A DNA stretch of 46,192 bases from Bacteroidota bacterium (GTDB lineage: Bacteria; Bacteroidota; Bacteroidia; 2-12-FULL-35-15), in NCBI GenBank assembly GCA_023251835.1, contig JAHEXZ010000042.1, positions 1-46,192 on the forward strand. The letters are read 5' to 3'. The notes beneath the pieces are model-generated. The model was not told where the DNA came from and did no database searches. It saw nothing but the letters and a program-made list of their open reading frames with translations. Each line of letters starts with the position of its first letter. Positions within the stretch are counted from its first letter, which is position 1. The position numbers and the translations under genes are program-made. Below, in pieces: positions 1 through 6,640 of the stretch.

Positions 1-524
1 TTTAAGTATTCATTGGTTTTTTCTTCAATGTACTTTAAATGTCTTTCTACCTTTTTAGGATTGTAATTATTTTTTTTGCTATTGTGTGCACGCATCTTTG
101 TTCCATCAACAGCCACTGTTCTACCTGAGATCAAATCCGCATCTTTTAAAAAACTAACAAACAACTTGAATGTATTTCTTAATGAAGGAGGGTTCTCTTT
201 TCTGAAATCGGCAATACTGTGATAGTTTGGAATAAGCTTGCAAACAAGCCATTGAAGCTCAATATTACGCATACACTCCTTTTCTAGTCTCCGGCTGCTT
301 CTGATACCATTCAGATACCCGTAGAAATAGATCTTTAAAAATACTTTGGGATCAAATGAAGGACGGCCCTCATTTTTAACTTCTTTGATCTTAAATCCAA
401 GTTTGGACAAATCGAGCTTCTCTACAAAAGCTTCAATCAAACGAACTGAATTATCCTTTTCTATTAAATCATCAAGACTTGTGAATTCAAGCTGATTTCG
501 GCTGGTACTAATAATGTGCTGCAT
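1..524 (-). CDS. IS1182-like transposase, N-terminal part (cut by window edge)
   Basis: This reads as the first 174 residues of an IS1182/IS5-superfamily transposase. The frame is open from an ATG at 524 to the window edge. Residues about 55-115 look like the DUF772 domain of these enzymes (FDPKVFLKIYFYGYLNG, then IADFRKEN). The segment VAVDGTKMRAHNS around D140 is the expected first catalytic Asp of the DDE triad. The remaining DDE residues and one IS end lie outside the window. The transposase runs out of the window, away from the cassette-like gene at 659, so the inner IS end should lie between about 525 and 598. I could not identify its terminal repeat there. Family assignment is from recognition of the motif pattern; whether the element is intact cannot be judged. 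Confidence 0.85.
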   Translation of the reverse strand, partial: MQHIISTSRNQLEFTSLDDLIEKDNSVRLIEAFVEKLDLSKLGFKIKEVKNEGRPSFDPKVFLKIYFYGYLNGIRSSRRLEKECMRNIELQWLVCKLIPNYHSIADFRKENPPSLRNTFKLFVSFLKDADLISGRTVAVDGTKMRAHNSKKNNYNPKKVERHLKYIEEKTNEYL

Positions 525-598
525 ACTGGAATTTTTAAATGCAAAAGAAATAATTTGTTCCTTACTTATTTTGTATATTTATTACTAGTTTTAAATAG

Positions 599-629
599 CA
601 GAATGTGAATTATGTTTTTTCACACTCTG
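599..629. repeat. Stem-loop next to cassette-like boundary
   Basis: CAGAATGTGAA (599-609) pairs with TTCACACTCTG (619-629) with one mismatch, giving a hairpin with a 9-base loop. It lies 2 bases before the GTTAGCGG boundary repeat at 632. The position recalls the folded arm of an attC site, but it is shorter than typical attC sites and part of it may have been lost when the neighbouring IS inserted. Confidence 0.5.
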
Positions 630-631
630 AC

Positions 632-646
632 GTTAGCGGTAATTAT
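632..646 (+). repeat. Left copy of 15-bp inverted repeat framing the small ORF
   Basis: GTTAGCGGTAATTAT matches the reverse complement of 1162-1176 (GTTAGCGGTAGTTAT) at 14 of 15 positions. The pair encloses just one gene, as the ends of an integron gene cassette do. The core does not fit the canonical GTTRRRY consensus exactly, so the resemblance to an integron boundary is inference. Confidence 0.7.
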
Positions 647-658
647 AAAAAGACATCA

Positions 659-1165
659 ATGCGACAATTATCATTTTTAATTTTGACTTTTTTTCTATAC
701 ACAGATTGTTTCGGACAGCGAAAGAGTAATAATGATAATATTCGTTCCTTGTTTATCCAAACTGAATATCAATTTTTAAAATATGACTACTTGACCTTTG
801 GGCTTGGCTTTCAACCAAAAAGAACTTTGCTTCAAGCGGAACGAAGACACTCAAAATATTCGTTTGTTGGTTGGACTATTAATTATAGTAAAAAACTTGA
901 AAATGCTGACTGGGGTGCTTCAATTCAGACAATTTTATATACATCGACCGCTGACGGACCATTTGGTATTGGACTTGAAGGGAACTATAAATCTGTAAAC
1001 AACACAGACCATTTTTGTTTCAAGCCACTCATTGGGCTTTCATTTCCTTTTGTAAGTATAATGTATGCATATAACTTCGACTTCTATAAAATTAAAGCAG
1101 ACAGAATTAATCAACATGAACTCATTTTAGGACTGCGACTCGCAATTCTAAGACAAAAGAAATAA
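659..1165 (+). CDS. Small secreted or outer-membrane protein of unknown function
   Basis: The product is 168 residues. An ATG at 605 would give 186 residues, but the ATG at 659 begins a clean signal peptide (MRQLSFLILTFFLY, cleavage likely after CFGQ), and the upstream ATG lies inside the hairpin and boundary repeat, so I chose 659. The mature part is rich in alternating aromatic and polar residues (FLKYDYLTFGLGFQ, WGASIQTILY, LIGLSFPF) and ends ELILGLRLAIL, a pattern compatible with a small beta-barrel or beta-rich envelope protein. No family was recognised. It is a single gene between inverted 15-bp repeats, as in a mobile cassette. The stop codon at 1163-1165 lies inside the right repeat. 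Confidence 0.7.
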   Translation: MRQLSFLILTFFLYTDCFGQRKSNNDNIRSLFIQTEYQFLKYDYLTFGLGFQPKRTLLQAERRHSKYSFVGWTINYSKKLENADWGASIQTILYTSTADGPFGIGLEGNYKSVNNTDHFCFKPLIGLSFPFVSIMYAYNFDFYKIKADRINQHELILGLRLAILRQKK

Positions 1166-1176
1166 CTACCGCTAAC
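1162..1176 (-). repeat. Right copy of 15-bp inverted repeat framing the small ORF
   Basis: ATAACTACCGCTAAC is the inverted partner of 632-646 with one mismatch. It overlaps the stop codon of the enclosed gene and is directly followed by the stem-loop at 1182-1225. The CCGCTAAC core recurs near 8078-8085, next to another small accessory gene pair. Confidence 0.7.
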
Positions 1177-1181
1177 ATATA

Positions 1182-1225
1182 AGGATTAAACGAAGAGTAG
1201 CGCAGCGGAACTTCGATTTAATCCT
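1182..1225. repeat. attC-like stem-loop with a bulged base
   Basis: AGGATTAAACGAAG (1182-1195) pairs with CTTCGATTTAATCCT (1211-1225) as a 14-bp stem with one unpaired T in the right arm and a 15-base loop. A long imperfect palindrome with an extrahelical base, set between CGCTAAC at 1170-1176 and GCGTTAATG at 1244-1252, is the general layout of an attC recombination site. No integron integrase is in the window, and the core triplets are not canonical. Confidence 0.5.
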
Positions 1226-1249
1226 GTGTTCAACACGGGCTTTGCGTTA

Positions 1250-1498
1250 ATGGGTGGACAGACAAACAAGAAAAATCAACCGACTACAGCTATTACAATA
1301 ACTACATTAAAGAAAAAACTTATTGGGAATTGGGTTGCTAATACAGATTTGTATTCGATTGAAACAGGCGATACTATTCACTTTGAAAAAACAAAATACA
1401 ATTATGATTTATACACTTGGGGGAAATATCCATCAGGAATAGAATTTAAATCAGATCAGCCCGCTAAAACAAACATTTGTGCTTCGTATGAACTTTAG
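1250..1498 (+). pseudogene. Truncated small gene, lipocalin-like fragment
   Basis: The frame is open for 82 codons from the ATG at 1250; an in-frame ATG at 1226 lies inside the repeat region. Residues about 24-55 (KKLIGNWVANTDLYS, GDTIHFEKTKYNYDLYTWG) look like the first strands of small lipocalin-like proteins, which open with a G-x-W motif, but the product stops well short of the roughly 120-150 residues usual for them. There is no signal peptide. It starts immediately after the attC-like structure and probably represents a cassette gene that has lost its 3' half. A genuine small protein cannot be excluded. Confidence 0.4.
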
Positions 1499-1546
1499 TG
1501 CTAAAAATCCCGTCCTTTGCCAAGCCGCTGGAAACATAAGCACCTC

Positions 1547-2857
1547 CTAAAACAATCCTTTATTAAGAGCCAAAAGCGTATCTTTTTTCAATTTTGTATC
1601 CACCAGAATTGAAATATTGTTCTCACTGCCCCCATAAGAAATCATACGAATCGGGATGCTCTTCAATGCTTCGAAAATACGTAATGCATAACCTTGTTTG
1701 TTGGCAGAAAAATCACCTACTATACAAACAATTGTTTGATCGGTATCCACCTCAACACTGCAAAATTCCTGTAATTCTTTTCTTACAGCATCCAGGTGCT
1801 TTGTATTATCAATTGTTAATGAAACAGCCACCTCTGAAGTGGTAATCATGTCGATAGGTGTTTTATAGCGCTCAAAAATTTCAAATACGGAACGTAAAAA
1901 ACCATAAGCGAGCAACATCCTGCCTGATTTTATCTTAATTGCTGTAATACCATCTTTTGCAGCAACAGCTTTAATACTATCTCCTGATACTTTTGATGTT
2001 ATAACAGTTCCTTTTGCATGCGGCTGCATTGTATTTAACAACCGAACCGGAATATTACGTGTTTGTGCAGGTAAAATACAGGTTGGATGTAATATTTTAG
2101 CGCCAAAATAGGCCAACTCAGCAGCTTCATCAAAAGAAAGTTCGGCAATAGGGTAGGTTTTATCTACTATCCTTGGATCATTATTGTGCATACCATCAAT
2201 ATCAGTCCATATTTGTATTTCGTCAGATTGGATAGTTGCCCCAATAATCGTAGCCGTATAATCGCTACCCCCGCGTTTTAAATTGTCAATTTCACCAAAA
2301 GCATTACGGCAAATATACCCCTGAGTAATAAATAATTTTTTACCCGGATATTTAGCAAGTTCTGGTTTTATGTAGGTTTCAATGTATTTCAGATCGGGTT
2401 CTTCATTTTCATTTATACGCATAAAATTAAGAGCCGGAAACAGAACAGAATCAACACCAATTTCAGTTAAATAGTAGTGAAACAAAGCCGTTGATAGTAA
2501 TTCTCCCTGAGCCAGTATTGCACGCTCTTCATTTATGGTAAACAAATCCATTGTAAATGAACGCAAATAGGTGAAGTGGGAATCAATCAGTTCTTGTCCT
2601 TTTTGTGTAGCGCTATCTGTTGTATACAGTTGTTTTACAACATCTTTGTATTTATTCTCTAATGCATCAATTAGCTTTTTTGCTTTATTATGTTCCCTGG
2701 CATATAAAGCGTCTGCAATCTCAACCAAATTGTTGGTTGTGCCACTCATAGCCGACAGTACAACAATTTTAGGTACACCATCGTTAATCAATTGTACCAA
2801 AGCTTTCATACGTTCTGCTGAACCTACTGATGTTCCACCGAATTTTAAAACTCTCAT
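1547..2857 (-). CDS. lysC: Aspartate kinase (aspartokinase III type)
   Basis: It phosphorylates L-aspartate with ATP, the first step toward lysine, threonine, methionine and diaminopimelate. The 436-residue length fits monofunctional LysC. The start at 2857 gives MRVLKFGGTSVGSAERM, the nucleotide-binding KFGGTSVG motif at its usual distance from the N terminus; a GTG start at 2884 would add nine unconserved residues. The kinase domain (to about residue 285) contains GGSDYTATIIGA and IWTDIDGMHNNDPRIV, the substrate-binding segment. Two ACT-type regulatory domains follow (about 300-436; ITTSEVAVSLTID is typical), so feedback control by lysine is likely. It is transcribed alone, divergently from the gldFG gene, with a likely -7 element at 2932-2939. 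Confidence 0.95.
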   Translation of the reverse strand: MRVLKFGGTSVGSAERMKALVQLINDGVPKIVVLSAMSGTTNNLVEIADALYAREHNKAKKLIDALENKYKDVVKQLYTTDSATQKGQELIDSHFTYLRSFTMDLFTINEERAILAQGELLSTALFHYYLTEIGVDSVLFPALNFMRINENEEPDLKYIETYIKPELAKYPGKKLFITQGYICRNAFGEIDNLKRGGSDYTATIIGATIQSDEIQIWTDIDGMHNNDPRIVDKTYPIAELSFDEAAELAYFGAKILHPTCILPAQTRNIPVRLLNTMQPHAKGTVITSKVSGDSIKAVAAKDGITAIKIKSGRMLLAYGFLRSVFEIFERYKTPIDMITTSEVAVSLTIDNTKHLDAVRKELQEFCSVEVDTDQTIVCIVGDFSANKQGYALRIFEALKSIPIRMISYGGSENNISILVDTKLKKDTLLALNKGLF

Positions 2858-2931
2858 CTCGTAATACTTAACACTTTTTAACACTGATGCCGGGTAAAAT
2901 TATATCCCATCACGTATTTTTATCCTGGCTT

Positions 2932-2939
2932 CAAAAGTA
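2932..2939 (-). promoter_or_regulatory. Probable -7 promoter element of lysC
   Basis: On the minus strand this reads TACTTTTG, an exact match to the Bacteroidota -7 consensus TAnnTTTG, 75 bases before the aspartate kinase start. No convincing TTTG -33 box was found at the expected distance, so confidence is limited. Confidence 0.4.
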
Positions 2940-2999
2940 GCCATAAAAAGGAAAACATCGTTGATATTGTTTATAAAATAGTATTTTCGTAGTCTGTTT

Positions 3000-5471
3000 A
3001 TGTTTACACTCTTAAAAAAGGAAATACGCAGTTTTTTAAGTTCCCTGGTTGGTTATATTGCCATCACTGTTTTTTTATTGGTAATCAGTCTTTTTTTATG
3101 GGTTTTACAAACGGACTCCAATATATTAGATAATGGTTATGCCAATATAGACCCACTTTTCATTATTGCTCCCTGGGTATTTCTGTTTTTAATTCCTGCT
3201 ATCACCATGCGTTCATTTGCTGATGAAAAAAAGGCCGGAACCATTGAGTTATTACTTACCAGGCCACTTACCGATCTTCAGATTATTTTATCAAAATATT
3301 TTGCAGGATTTCTATTGGTGTTGTTTTCATTGTTGCCAACCTTAATTTATTATTATTCAGTACATAAGTTGGGCAGCCCGGTTGGGAATATTGATACCGG
3401 AGGTATGTGGGGCTCATATATTGGTTTACTTTTTTTGGGTGCTGCTTTTGTAGCTATTGGCATTTTTGCTTCGGCAATCACTGACAACCAGGTAGTATCC
3501 TTTATCCTTGCCCTATTCCTTTGCTTTTTCACGTATACCGGATTTGATTATATGGCTTCTTTCGCTTTTTTTGGAAAGGTGGATACTATTATTCAGGCTT
3601 TGGGAATCAACCATCATTATATTTCCATGAGTCGTGGTGTTATTGATACGCGTGATATTATTTATTTTTTAAGTTTAATAGCATTGTTCATTCTGACAAC
3701 AAGAACAGTGTTGGAAAGTAGAAAATGGGAGTCCCTCTCGCCTCCGAAGAAGAAGAGCACAATAGCTTCAATCTTTATCTCCCCTTTGGGGAGGTCTGGC
3801 TGGGCTTCTATGCTATCATTGATTTTAGCAGTAATCATTCTGGTGCTGTCAAACTTTTTGGGATCTTTCGTCTTTCATCGTTTTGATCTTACTTCCGAAA
3901 AACGTTATACATTATCTGATGCAACAAAAAAATTATTAGGCCAATTAAATGATGTAGTATATGTAAAGGTTTATTTAGAAGGAGAATTTCCTGCGGGCTT
4001 CAAGCACTTGCGTGATGAAACCAGGGAAATGCTGGATGAATTCAGAATTTATTCTAACGATAATATTGAATATGAATTTATCAACCCAAACGAAAACCCG
4101 GATAAAAAACAGCAGGATGAAATTTACAGACAGCTTTATAAAAAGGGGTTACAACCTACCAATCTGGAAATAAAAGAAGAAAGCGGAATATCACAACAAA
4201 TCATATTTCCTGGTGCAATTGTATCGCACAAAGGCCGTGAGCTGCCCTGGCAGCTATTAAAAACCGGCATTGGTCAGTCACCGGAATCGCAATTAAACAA
4301 TTCTGTTCAGGCATTAGAATATGAATTTGCCAGTTGTATCCGCAATTTAACAACTGCTATAAAACCACAAATTGGAATTGTTGAAGGACATGGAGAACTT
4401 GATACACTTGCCCTTAAAGACATCAGGGAAGCATTAAGTGAATTTTACTTTCTGAAGCAGGTAAAAATCAATGAACAGCTAAAAGCGCTTGAAGGATTAA
4501 AAGCCATTATCATTGCCAAGCCAGATACGGCCTTTTCTGAAAAAGATAAATTTATTATTGATCAGTATGTGATGAAAGGCGGCAAAATACTATGGGCAGT
4601 GGACCCATTGTATACAAGTATGGACAGTCTCCGTAAATCATCAAGAACAGTAGCAATACCCTATGAGTTAAAACTTGATGATCTTTTTTTTAAATATGGT
4701 GTACGTCTTAATCCTAATATGGTACTGGATTTGCAATCGTCCGCAATACCTGTAAACAAAGCATTGGCTGGTCAGCCCCCACGGTTTGAGCTGATGCCTT
4801 GGATATTTTCACCATTGTTATTACCAAACTCCAATCATCCCATAGTAAATAATCTGGATGTAATAAAAGCAGAATTTGCATCCAGCATCGATACTATTGA
4901 TGTGAAAGGTGTAAAAAAAACAATTCTTCTTCAATCTTCCAAATACTCAAAAACGTTAAATGCTCCTGTCAGAGTGGATTTACGTATGGTAAATATGACA
5001 CCGGATGAAAACCGGTTCCGGGATTCTTACCGGCCAATAGCCGTATTGTTAGAAGGCGAATTTGAATCGGTATTTAAAAACAGGATACCTCCTAAAGTGG
5101 CTACAGATAGCACTATTAATTACAAAGAAAAAGGTATAGCTACCAAAATGATTGTTATATCAGATGGTGATATTATCAGGAATGAGGTTCAATATTCTAC
5201 AGGTAAAGCTTACCCTTTGGGATACGATATTTATTCCAGGCAAACCTATGGCAATAAAAACTTTATACTGAATTGTATGAACTATCTTTGTGATGATTCC
5301 GGATTAGTCAGTGTTCGTGCAAGGGAGTTAACACTACGTCTTTTGGATAAGAAAAAATTAAAAAATGAACGGTTGAAATGGCAAATCGTGAATACCGCTT
5401 TGCCTTTGTTTACCGTGCTTATTTTTGGGATAATATATTCGGTTGTACGAAGGCGGAAGTATGCCAGATAG
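3000..5471 (+). CDS. gldFG: GldF-GldG fusion: gliding-motility ABC transporter permease plus auxiliary subunit
   Basis: This 823-residue protein joins two proteins that are separate in Flavobacterium. Residues 1-240 match GldF, an ABC-2 type permease with about six membrane helices and the segment FADEKKAGTIELLLTRPLTD. From about residue 268 it matches GldG: one helix, then the soluble ABC-transporter auxiliary domain (RFDLTSEKRYTLSD, then GIVEGHGELD), closing with a C-terminal helix (residues about 793-812) and a basic end. GldG-type proteins act with the ATPase GldA, which is not in this window. The linker (about residues 241-267) contains Lys- and Gly-rich sequence encoded by DNA with a small palindrome (CTCCCC-TTT-GGGGAG, 3779-3793), which suggests the junction acquired a repeat. 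The DUF4340 gene follows on the same strand. The start ATG at 3000 gives MFTLLKKEIRSFL, the usual GldF N terminus. Confidence 0.88.
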   Translation: MFTLLKKEIRSFLSSLVGYIAITVFLLVISLFLWVLQTDSNILDNGYANIDPLFIIAPWVFLFLIPAITMRSFADEKKAGTIELLLTRPLTDLQIILSKYFAGFLLVLFSLLPTLIYYYSVHKLGSPVGNIDTGGMWGSYIGLLFLGAAFVAIGIFASAITDNQVVSFILALFLCFFTYTGFDYMASFAFFGKVDTIIQALGINHHYISMSRGVIDTRDIIYFLSLIALFILTTRTVLESRKWESLSPPKKKSTIASIFISPLGRSGWASMLSLILAVIILVLSNFLGSFVFHRFDLTSEKRYTLSDATKKLLGQLNDVVYVKVYLEGEFPAGFKHLRDETREMLDEFRIYSNDNIEYEFINPNENPDKKQQDEIYRQLYKKGLQPTNLEIKEESGISQQIIFPGAIVSHKGRELPWQLLKTGIGQSPESQLNNSVQALEYEFASCIRNLTTAIKPQIGIVEGHGELDTLALKDIREALSEFYFLKQVKINEQLKALEGLKAIIIAKPDTAFSEKDKFIIDQYVMKGGKILWAVDPLYTSMDSLRKSSRTVAIPYELKLDDLFFKYGVRLNPNMVLDLQSSAIPVNKALAGQPPRFELMPWIFSPLLLPNSNHPIVNNLDVIKAEFASSIDTIDVKGVKKTILLQSSKYSKTLNAPVRVDLRMVNMTPDENRFRDSYRPIAVLLEGEFESVFKNRIPPKVATDSTINYKEKGIATKMIVISDGDIIRNEVQYSTGKAYPLGYDIYSRQTYGNKNFILNCMNYLCDDSGLVSVRARELTLRLLDKKKLKNERLKWQIVNTALPLFTVLIFGIIYSVVRRRKYAR

Positions 5472-5473
5472 CT

Positions 5474-5580
5474 TTTTATACTGAATTTGCTAAAGCAAAA
5501 GCGGTTAGATTCAGTAATACTGATTGAATGAGTTTGCCCCAACAAGTGTCCAGACAAACTCATTCTGCCGAAGTATAATA
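5474..5580 (-). repeat. Two-hairpin dispersed repeat, copy A
   Basis: This intergenic block matches 32941-33046 in opposite orientation over about 105 bases. It contains two hairpins: TACTGAAT/ATTCAGTA (5479-5486 and 5509-5516) and a perfect 11-bp stem GAATGAGTTTG/CAAACTCATTC (5526-5536 and 5555-5565). It lies between gldFG and the DUF4340 gene, inside what would be one transcript. Confidence 0.8.
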
Positions 5581-5590
5581 CAAAGTAGAC

Positions 5591-6640
5591 ATGAAAAAAA
5601 ACAGAATTGCAATTATTTTAGTTATTGTTTTAGCTTCTGCCTCATTTTGGTTTGTCATTAATCGTAAAAGTGGAACTATTAAACCTACTCTGCGCGATTT
5701 TGCTGTTGCAGACACCGCATCCATTACCAAGATATTTTTAGCAGATAAAAATGGCAATACGATTACCCTGGAACGTCAACCTGGTACACAATGGATTGTT
5801 AACGGAAAATATACAGTCCGGCCGGATGCCATACAGATGCTGCTAACAACAATAAAAAAGATTGATGTAAAAGAACCTGTCGGAAAAAATGCACAGGACA
5901 ATGTAATAAAACGTTTGGCAGCAAAGGCCGTTAAATGTGAAATTTATCAAAACAACGAGCTTACAAAAGCCTATTACGTGGGCACCGAAACCCCGGATCA
6001 AACGGGAACCTATATGATTCTAATTGATCCGGAAACCATGAAACCTTCTGCAAAAGCCTTTATTACATATATTCCCGGTTTTGAAGGTTACCTTACTACC
6101 CGTTATTTTACGGAAGAAAATGGCTGGAGAGACCGTACCGTTTTTCATTACATTCCAACAGAAATCAAGTCTGTAAAGCTGGAAGCTCCTGCTAATCCGG
6201 AACAAAATTATGAACTTACTGTATCGGGCGAAAACAATTACAAGGTAAAGAGACTGACAGATAATAAACCCTTGGATGATTTGGATACCCTGGCTTTAAA
6301 GCAGTATTTATCTTACTTTCAGCAGCTCAACTTTGAAGGCTTTGAAGCAGAAATAACCCAACAACAAATAGATTCTGTATTAAAAACCAAACCGTTAAAT
6401 ATACTTACCGTCACAAACAATAAAGGACAAAGCAATAAAGTAACTTTTTATACACGTAACAATTTGAAAAAAGTGTTGGATGAAGATGGTAATCCATTGC
6501 CTTTTGATCCTGTTCGTTTGGATGCGCTTCTTAATAATGGGAAGGATTTTGTAATGTTGCAATATTTTGTATTTGGTAAAGTGCTGCCTCCGGTTGATTA
6601 CTTCCGAAAAAAAAGTGTTCCCGGTAACTCGCGTTCCTGA
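5591..6640 (+). CDS. DUF4340 domain-containing membrane-anchored protein
   Basis: The product is 349 residues, with an N-terminal membrane anchor (residues about 5-23, RIAIILVIVLASASFWFVI) followed by a soluble extracytoplasmic part. The pattern of an alpha/beta repeat with VADTASITKIFLADKNG, then LERQPGTQWIVNGKY and AYYVGTETPDQTGTYM, is what is seen in DUF4340 proteins. These are frequently encoded next to gldG-like auxiliary genes, as here. The biochemical role is unknown; I infer a part in the same envelope ABC system. The gene is 119 bases downstream of gldFG, separated by a two-hairpin repeat, and is followed by a terminator-like hairpin at 6682-6710. Confidence 0.8.
   Translation: MKKNRIAIILVIVLASASFWFVINRKSGTIKPTLRDFAVADTASITKIFLADKNGNTITLERQPGTQWIVNGKYTVRPDAIQMLLTTIKKIDVKEPVGKNAQDNVIKRLAAKAVKCEIYQNNELTKAYYVGTETPDQTGTYMILIDPETMKPSAKAFITYIPGFEGYLTTRYFTEENGWRDRTVFHYIPTEIKSVKLEAPANPEQNYELTVSGENNYKVKRLTDNKPLDDLDTLALKQYLSYFQQLNFEGFEAEITQQQIDSVLKTKPLNILTVTNNKGQSNKVTFYTRNNLKKVLDEDGNPLPFDPVRLDALLNNGKDFVMLQYFVFGKVLPPVDYFRKKSVPGNSRS

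Follow-up and report, generated by a model that had tools for sequence, protein, structure and literature searches.

The closest described systems are the integrons built on the integrase IntI. Their cassettes have ends that are complementary over 9–11 nt (PMC2727003). The core of these systems reads GTTRRRY (R') and RYYYAAC (R''), and their attC sites carry one-sided extrahelical bases. An additional domain of IntI around patch III is described, in a passage of PMC9668308 that cites Messier and Roy 2001, as necessary for integron recombination; Smyshlyaev et al. found this insertion to be not fully conserved in their integron-like subgroup (PMC8138268). Complete integrons have been reported to be very rare in Bacteroidetes (PMC9024848). 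Among the other tyrosine recombinases, XerA resolves chromosome dimers (PMC8138268).

The stretch of DNA analyzed here (the window, 46,192 nucleotides) forms one contig in the 4.1-Mb draft genome of a Bacteroidota bacterium. Positions 632–1261 very probably represent a relict gene cassette of an integron-like Bacteroidota system. The system as a whole, in which a different recombinase takes the place of IntI and of which the window cassette would be a relict, is put forward with high confidence, the same judgment covering the entire explanation. No report of such a system was found in the literature covered, many subscription papers being outside its scope.

The window cassette and its disruption

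A 15-bp inverted repeat, noted in the preliminary description with its single mismatch, is present at 632–646 (GTTAGCGGTAATTAT) and 1162–1176 (ATAACTACCGCTAAC), where 14 of 15 positions are complementary. The outer 10 bp pair perfectly, GTTAGCGGTA at 632–641 (forward strand) forming the R'-like cassette start, with a GTTA core and cassette-specific bases, and TACCGCTAAC at 1167–1176 (forward strand) the R''-like box at the cassette end. The repeat encloses a single gene (659–1165, forward strand; from the open reading frame list and a Pfam scan) that begins with ATG at 659 and whose TAA stop, at 1163–1165, lies inside the right arm, as had been described. The 168-aa product has a hydrophobic N-terminus, compatible with the signal peptide claimed earlier, and could, as also claimed, be assigned to no recognized family; its sole Pfam match, to PorP/SprF, is sub-threshold (E 0.014).

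Of the 36 genomes of the genus, 2 have the gene, in different locations, so that the pattern set beforehand against a cassette (the gene always at this position in relatives) was not observed. The sole other carrier (G022) has a 71% homologue on another contig, after an attC-like site, and this homologue matches PorP/SprF at E 0.0011. The lysC gene that adjoins the window cassette is present in 28 of the 36 genomes, and in an empty-site comparison homology to relatives ends at the end of lysC. The window also encodes a GldF-GldG fusion, which, together with the named relatives of the recombinase found in this genome, assigns the genome to the Bacteroidota. Neither the phage records nor Rfam gave a match to the cassette region, and a search of the genome for the pattern ACCGCTAACA returned mostly unrelated background.

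By itself, the repeat is only weakly above chance: window positions 1–6000 contain 6 inverted pairs of at least 14/15, whereas 12 first-order Markov shuffles gave 0–3. It is the comparison with other loci that gives the repeat its meaning. As described below, the arm of the site, the junctions at the core and numerous homologous arrays all agree with it, and a chance match, for which its modest excess over the shuffles could be cited, is the most improbable of the explanations considered.

The sequence that follows the right repeat recurs after TAAC elsewhere in the same genome and in relatives, while the bases preceding TAAC differ. At several such places, the bases before TAAC complement those after the GTT core upstream of the same gene. 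The two repeats had initially been taken for two recombination sites; they are instead the cassette's own ends, the core start (R') and the R'' box, and the attC-like site stands 3' of the right repeat. An intact site in a relative (G015:C80) reads TAAC-ACGGGCTTTGCGTTAGTGGGCG...GCCCACCAACGCAAAGCCCG-AAAAC-GTTA. Window positions 1235–1261 (forward strand, ACGGGCTTTGCGTTAATGGGTGGACAG) match its left arm, which identifies them as the corresponding arm of the site that belongs to the window cassette. No right arm remains; a search for CGCAAAGCCCG across the rest of the window gave no match.

Both sides of the cassette have been interrupted. The N-terminal part of an IS transposase (1–524, reverse strand; DUF772, Pfam PF05598, E 6.7e-18) is cut by the contig start, and the terminal sequence of this attC-targeting IS (GTTTTTTCACACTCTGAC, 614–631, forward strand) abuts the cassette core. 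The same IS end abuts three cassette starts in the genome: in the window (GTTAGCGGTAAT), at L011 (GTTAGCGGTCAT) and at L247 (GTTAGGTGCAAG). Base 632 is the cassette start, because the IS abuts a cassette core three or more times in the genome and its presumed other end abuts the attC side three times. Taking its copies together (window 1–631, L011, L056, L247 and L254), the DUF772 IS adjoins the attC core exactly, before GTTA, at three places, and the end presumed to be its other end adjoins the attC side at three more.

On the right, the attC-like site is split behind its TAAC by a 58-bp hairpin (1177–1234, forward strand) of the same kind as one that ends an IS91-like element; the hairpin is best read as an insertion. 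Copies of it also stand after the TAAC of many other cassettes. The hairpin had been considered as the attC itself, a candidate that was dropped after comparison with the intact G015:C80 site and with an IS91-like neighbour in G016. An IS91-like element of the latter genome (L051, G016:C72, 633–3031) comprises a Y2 transposase and a tyrosine recombinase, with that hairpin at one end. The IS at the left core, the hairpin in the right site and the loss of the right arm would have stranded the cassette, which for these reasons has probably lost the ability to move in this way.

Cassette arrays and attC-like sites in relatives

In relatives, cassettes occur in tandem with one gene each, and each has its own self-complementary ends of 9–10 bp followed by an attC-like stem, in the general layout TAAC-A-stem...stem'-AAAAC-GTTR. 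Repeat pairs around single genes, which the preliminary description proposed to seek in related genomes, thus occur elsewhere too, and the intact sites, tandem arrays and cassette-specific ends bear out its reading of the window gene as a cassette. In the arrays that were walked (44 cassettes at 9 loci), the ends match over 9–10 bp, in common with the complementary ends of integron cassettes, and the modal site length is 121 bp. The longest ORF is co-oriented in 42 of the 44, as in the tandem one-gene cassettes of IntI integrons. The core was correctly recognized as non-canonical, but it keeps GTTR; in place of the RRRY of IntI cores, the bases that follow vary freely (e.g., GTTAGCG, GTTACCA).

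A single gene between inverted repeats, with IS ends nearby, could also be a transposon or MITE bounded by terminal inverted repeats, or a pdif-like module. The latter, moved by XerC/XerD, consist of single genes between inversely oriented recombination sites, and pdif sites all have the same sequence and lack a long stem on one side. Terminal repeats of transposons and MITEs are likewise shared by the copies. The ends described here, in contrast, vary between cassettes and match only within one cassette, and a one-sided stem follows each of them, which makes these explanations highly improbable.

The arrays begin at an attI-like motif, ATATAARCAA/GTTR, which follows a tyrosine recombinase gene at a distance of about 100 bp. 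In 17 of 32 other Bacteroidota loci, exact 10-bp cassette ends start a short way behind the recombinase (the shuffles gave a mean of 0.48 and at most 5), whereas the same test was not clearly above chance on the upstream side of the recombinase (2 of 42) or in relatives from outside the Bacteroidota (1 of 36). Among loci picked by the 10-bp ends alone, 18 of the 20 testable had a stem at p<0.05. Three loci (L102, with a short recombinase, L106 and L107) have arrays nearby but not directly behind the recombinase and were left out as array heads.

Movement of a cassette between arrays is represented by a single example, the one shared cassette examined in detail, which is common to G073 and G249, members of two families (L244, 3606–4598, and L246, minus strand; GTTATGCGGC). 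The two copies match at 91% over 1,019 bp, site included, while their upstream flanks are unrelated and the homology ends just upstream of the core. Both stem arms have been replaced together and much of the loop is conserved, a natural experiment that supports pairing of the arms. Their joint exchange may reflect adaptation of the sites to the local array.

Other elements were encountered in or beside the arrays. At about 3388 of L005 (G000:C29, minus strand), a cassette start (ATTAGCGGTAATT) directly adjoins what seems to be the 3' end of a group II intron, a junction that recalls introns targeting attC sites, and a Chryseobacterium array (L113) includes an IS110 transposase as well as a group II intron. 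Two cassettes of L057 (G000:C147, 272–3554) are apparently joined via a 57-bp palindromic hairpin (TAACATATAAGG...CCTTATATGTTA); recombination or misassembly could have produced this arrangement.

When 22 sites were aligned as the bottom strand, two-sided changes were seen at 17 of 17 L-stem pairs, a count that is partly circular in that the sites had been found by their stem. The bottom strand folds more stably in 31 of 34 sites. The central spacer is unpaired and asymmetric (in 25 of the 34, its left side has 1 nt and its right side 5 nt), and in all these respects the imperfect hairpins resemble attC sites of IntI integrons. In the 34 sites, 48 cases of an AxC mismatch on the top strand, each a TxG wobble on the bottom strand, recur near the same place, with which the better folding of the bottom strand accords. 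Conserved one-sided extrahelical bases, as found in IntI systems, were not seen in these sites (8 bulges in all); here the conserved feature is instead the bottom-strand G-T wobble.

The array-heading recombinase

The window encodes no recombinase of the array-heading kind, in agreement with the earlier statement that no integrase is present. One is encoded in the rest of the genome: contig C144 carries a tyrosine recombinase gene (703–1821), which an attI-like site, ATATAAGCAA/GTTAGGCAAC, follows at a distance of about 100 bp. Several relatives have arrays of the sites described above behind such a gene. Scanning named genomes and searching plasmids revealed the same layout in Algoriphagus ornithinivorans DSM 15282, Flavobacterium aciduliphilum DSM 25663, Aquiflexum, Winogradskyella and Seonamhaeicola, as well as on a Chryseobacterium plasmid. 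The attI-like motif thus lies next to the recombinase gene and is followed by the first cassette. A recombinase gene with an attI-like site is a feature shared with IntI integrons; unlike in the latter, the gene here is mostly co-oriented with the array and upstream of it.

On sequence grounds, the recombinase is not IntI, because the IntI-specific insert is absent, its scores remain below the IntI cut-off and it falls outside the IntI clade. The region near patch III comprises 24 residues versus 66 in VchIntIA, and two conserved motifs are separated by 58–62 residues versus 100 in IntI1. No genome of the genus gave a TIGR02249 (IntI) match over the cut-off; matches below it occur in 14 of 14 control genomes as well and for this reason were not taken as evidence of IntI. 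In the phylogeny, IntI forms a separate clade (support 100/100), and it is against this clade that the assignment was made. The recombinase of one locus (L155) is placed close to IntI, but with low support, and was given no weight in the argument.

The best-scoring NCBIfam model is that of XerA-like recombinases (NF040815), which was above cut-off for 2 of the 5 recombinases tested. The array-heading proteins differ from that family in an additional N-terminal domain (about 95 residues) and in the cassette arrays behind the gene. In variants of about 490–560 aa (L094, L096, L097, L099 and L100), there are seemingly extra copies of the N-terminal WSxxxKxW domain. The best PDB match of the predicted fold is VchIntIA (2A3V), followed by XerA.

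This fold, together with the array and its attI-like and attC-like anatomy, is what an ordinary integron with an IntI integrase would also offer, the window cassette then being a CALIN of the known family. Given the missing patch III insert, the separate IntI clade and the lack of any TIGR02249 match over the cut-off in the genus, this alternative is very unlikely. The system is, as far as its predicted parts indicate, integron-like in anatomy but lacks a feature that defines the IntI-based family; the earlier suggestion of a variant or unknown recombination system fits a recombinase that lacks the IntI insert and lies outside the IntI clade.

Distribution in the Bacteroidota and significance

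A covariance model of the sites gave matches in 33 of the 36 genomes of the genus. In a sample of 198 genomes from across the phylum, 109 have sites, 61 have the recombinase and 56 have both (Fisher p 3.9e-13). The model matched none of 47 control loci (399 kb, including IntI and Xer loci). Around Bacteroidota recombinases there were 52 matches, 7 of which are sites used to build the model, and 49 are downstream in the expected orientation. In 14 of the 19 contigs with both, the listed sites are mainly downstream of the recombinase and co-oriented with it. Outside the phylum, in a MAG labelled Spirochaetota (L132), a 10-bp pair of cassette-like ends and a stem (p 0.041) stand behind a recombinase, which could reflect transfer or mis-binning.

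Sites were also matched in 53 of the 137 genomes (39%) that lack a strong recombinase match. These genomes may be incomplete, or may contain array remnants or a more distant recombinase. They could also be cited, along with the further tyrosine recombinases that exist in these genomes, for the view that the arrays are real but are moved by XerC/XerD or another such enzyme. That view is nevertheless unlikely: the first core and the attI-like motif keep a fixed position behind the array-heading gene across families, sites and recombinase co-occur strongly, and the model matches nothing around Xer genes.

Returning to the array-heading enzyme, the sequences show one-gene cassettes in tandem, most of them in the same orientation, that follow a XerA-like tyrosine recombinase gene and its attI-like site. 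In the proposed mechanism, the adjacent recombinase would act on the folded bottom strand of the attC-like site, and cassette circles would enter attI either at the GTTR core or next to it, as with IntI. We infer from the comparisons above that recombination proceeds in this manner.

The arrays probably represent a second integron lineage in the Bacteroidota, in which XerA-like recombinases lacking the IntI domain would take up and stockpile cassettes via folded bottom-strand, attC-like sites in about one third (by recombinase) to more than half (by sites) of the sampled genomes, and which would have been overlooked because detection relies on IntI. If the arrays are active, the statement that complete integrons are very rare in this phylum (PMC9024848) and that passage of PMC9668308 which holds the additional domain to be necessary would need revision. 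Active arrays would further constitute an unrecognised cassette reservoir in a dominant environmental phylum, and recombination of folded single-strand sites would become testable in a recombinase without the IntI domain. For Algoriphagus ornithinivorans DSM 15282 and Flavobacterium aciduliphilum DSM 25663, the analysis provides concrete predictions of the attI, core, strand and site structure.
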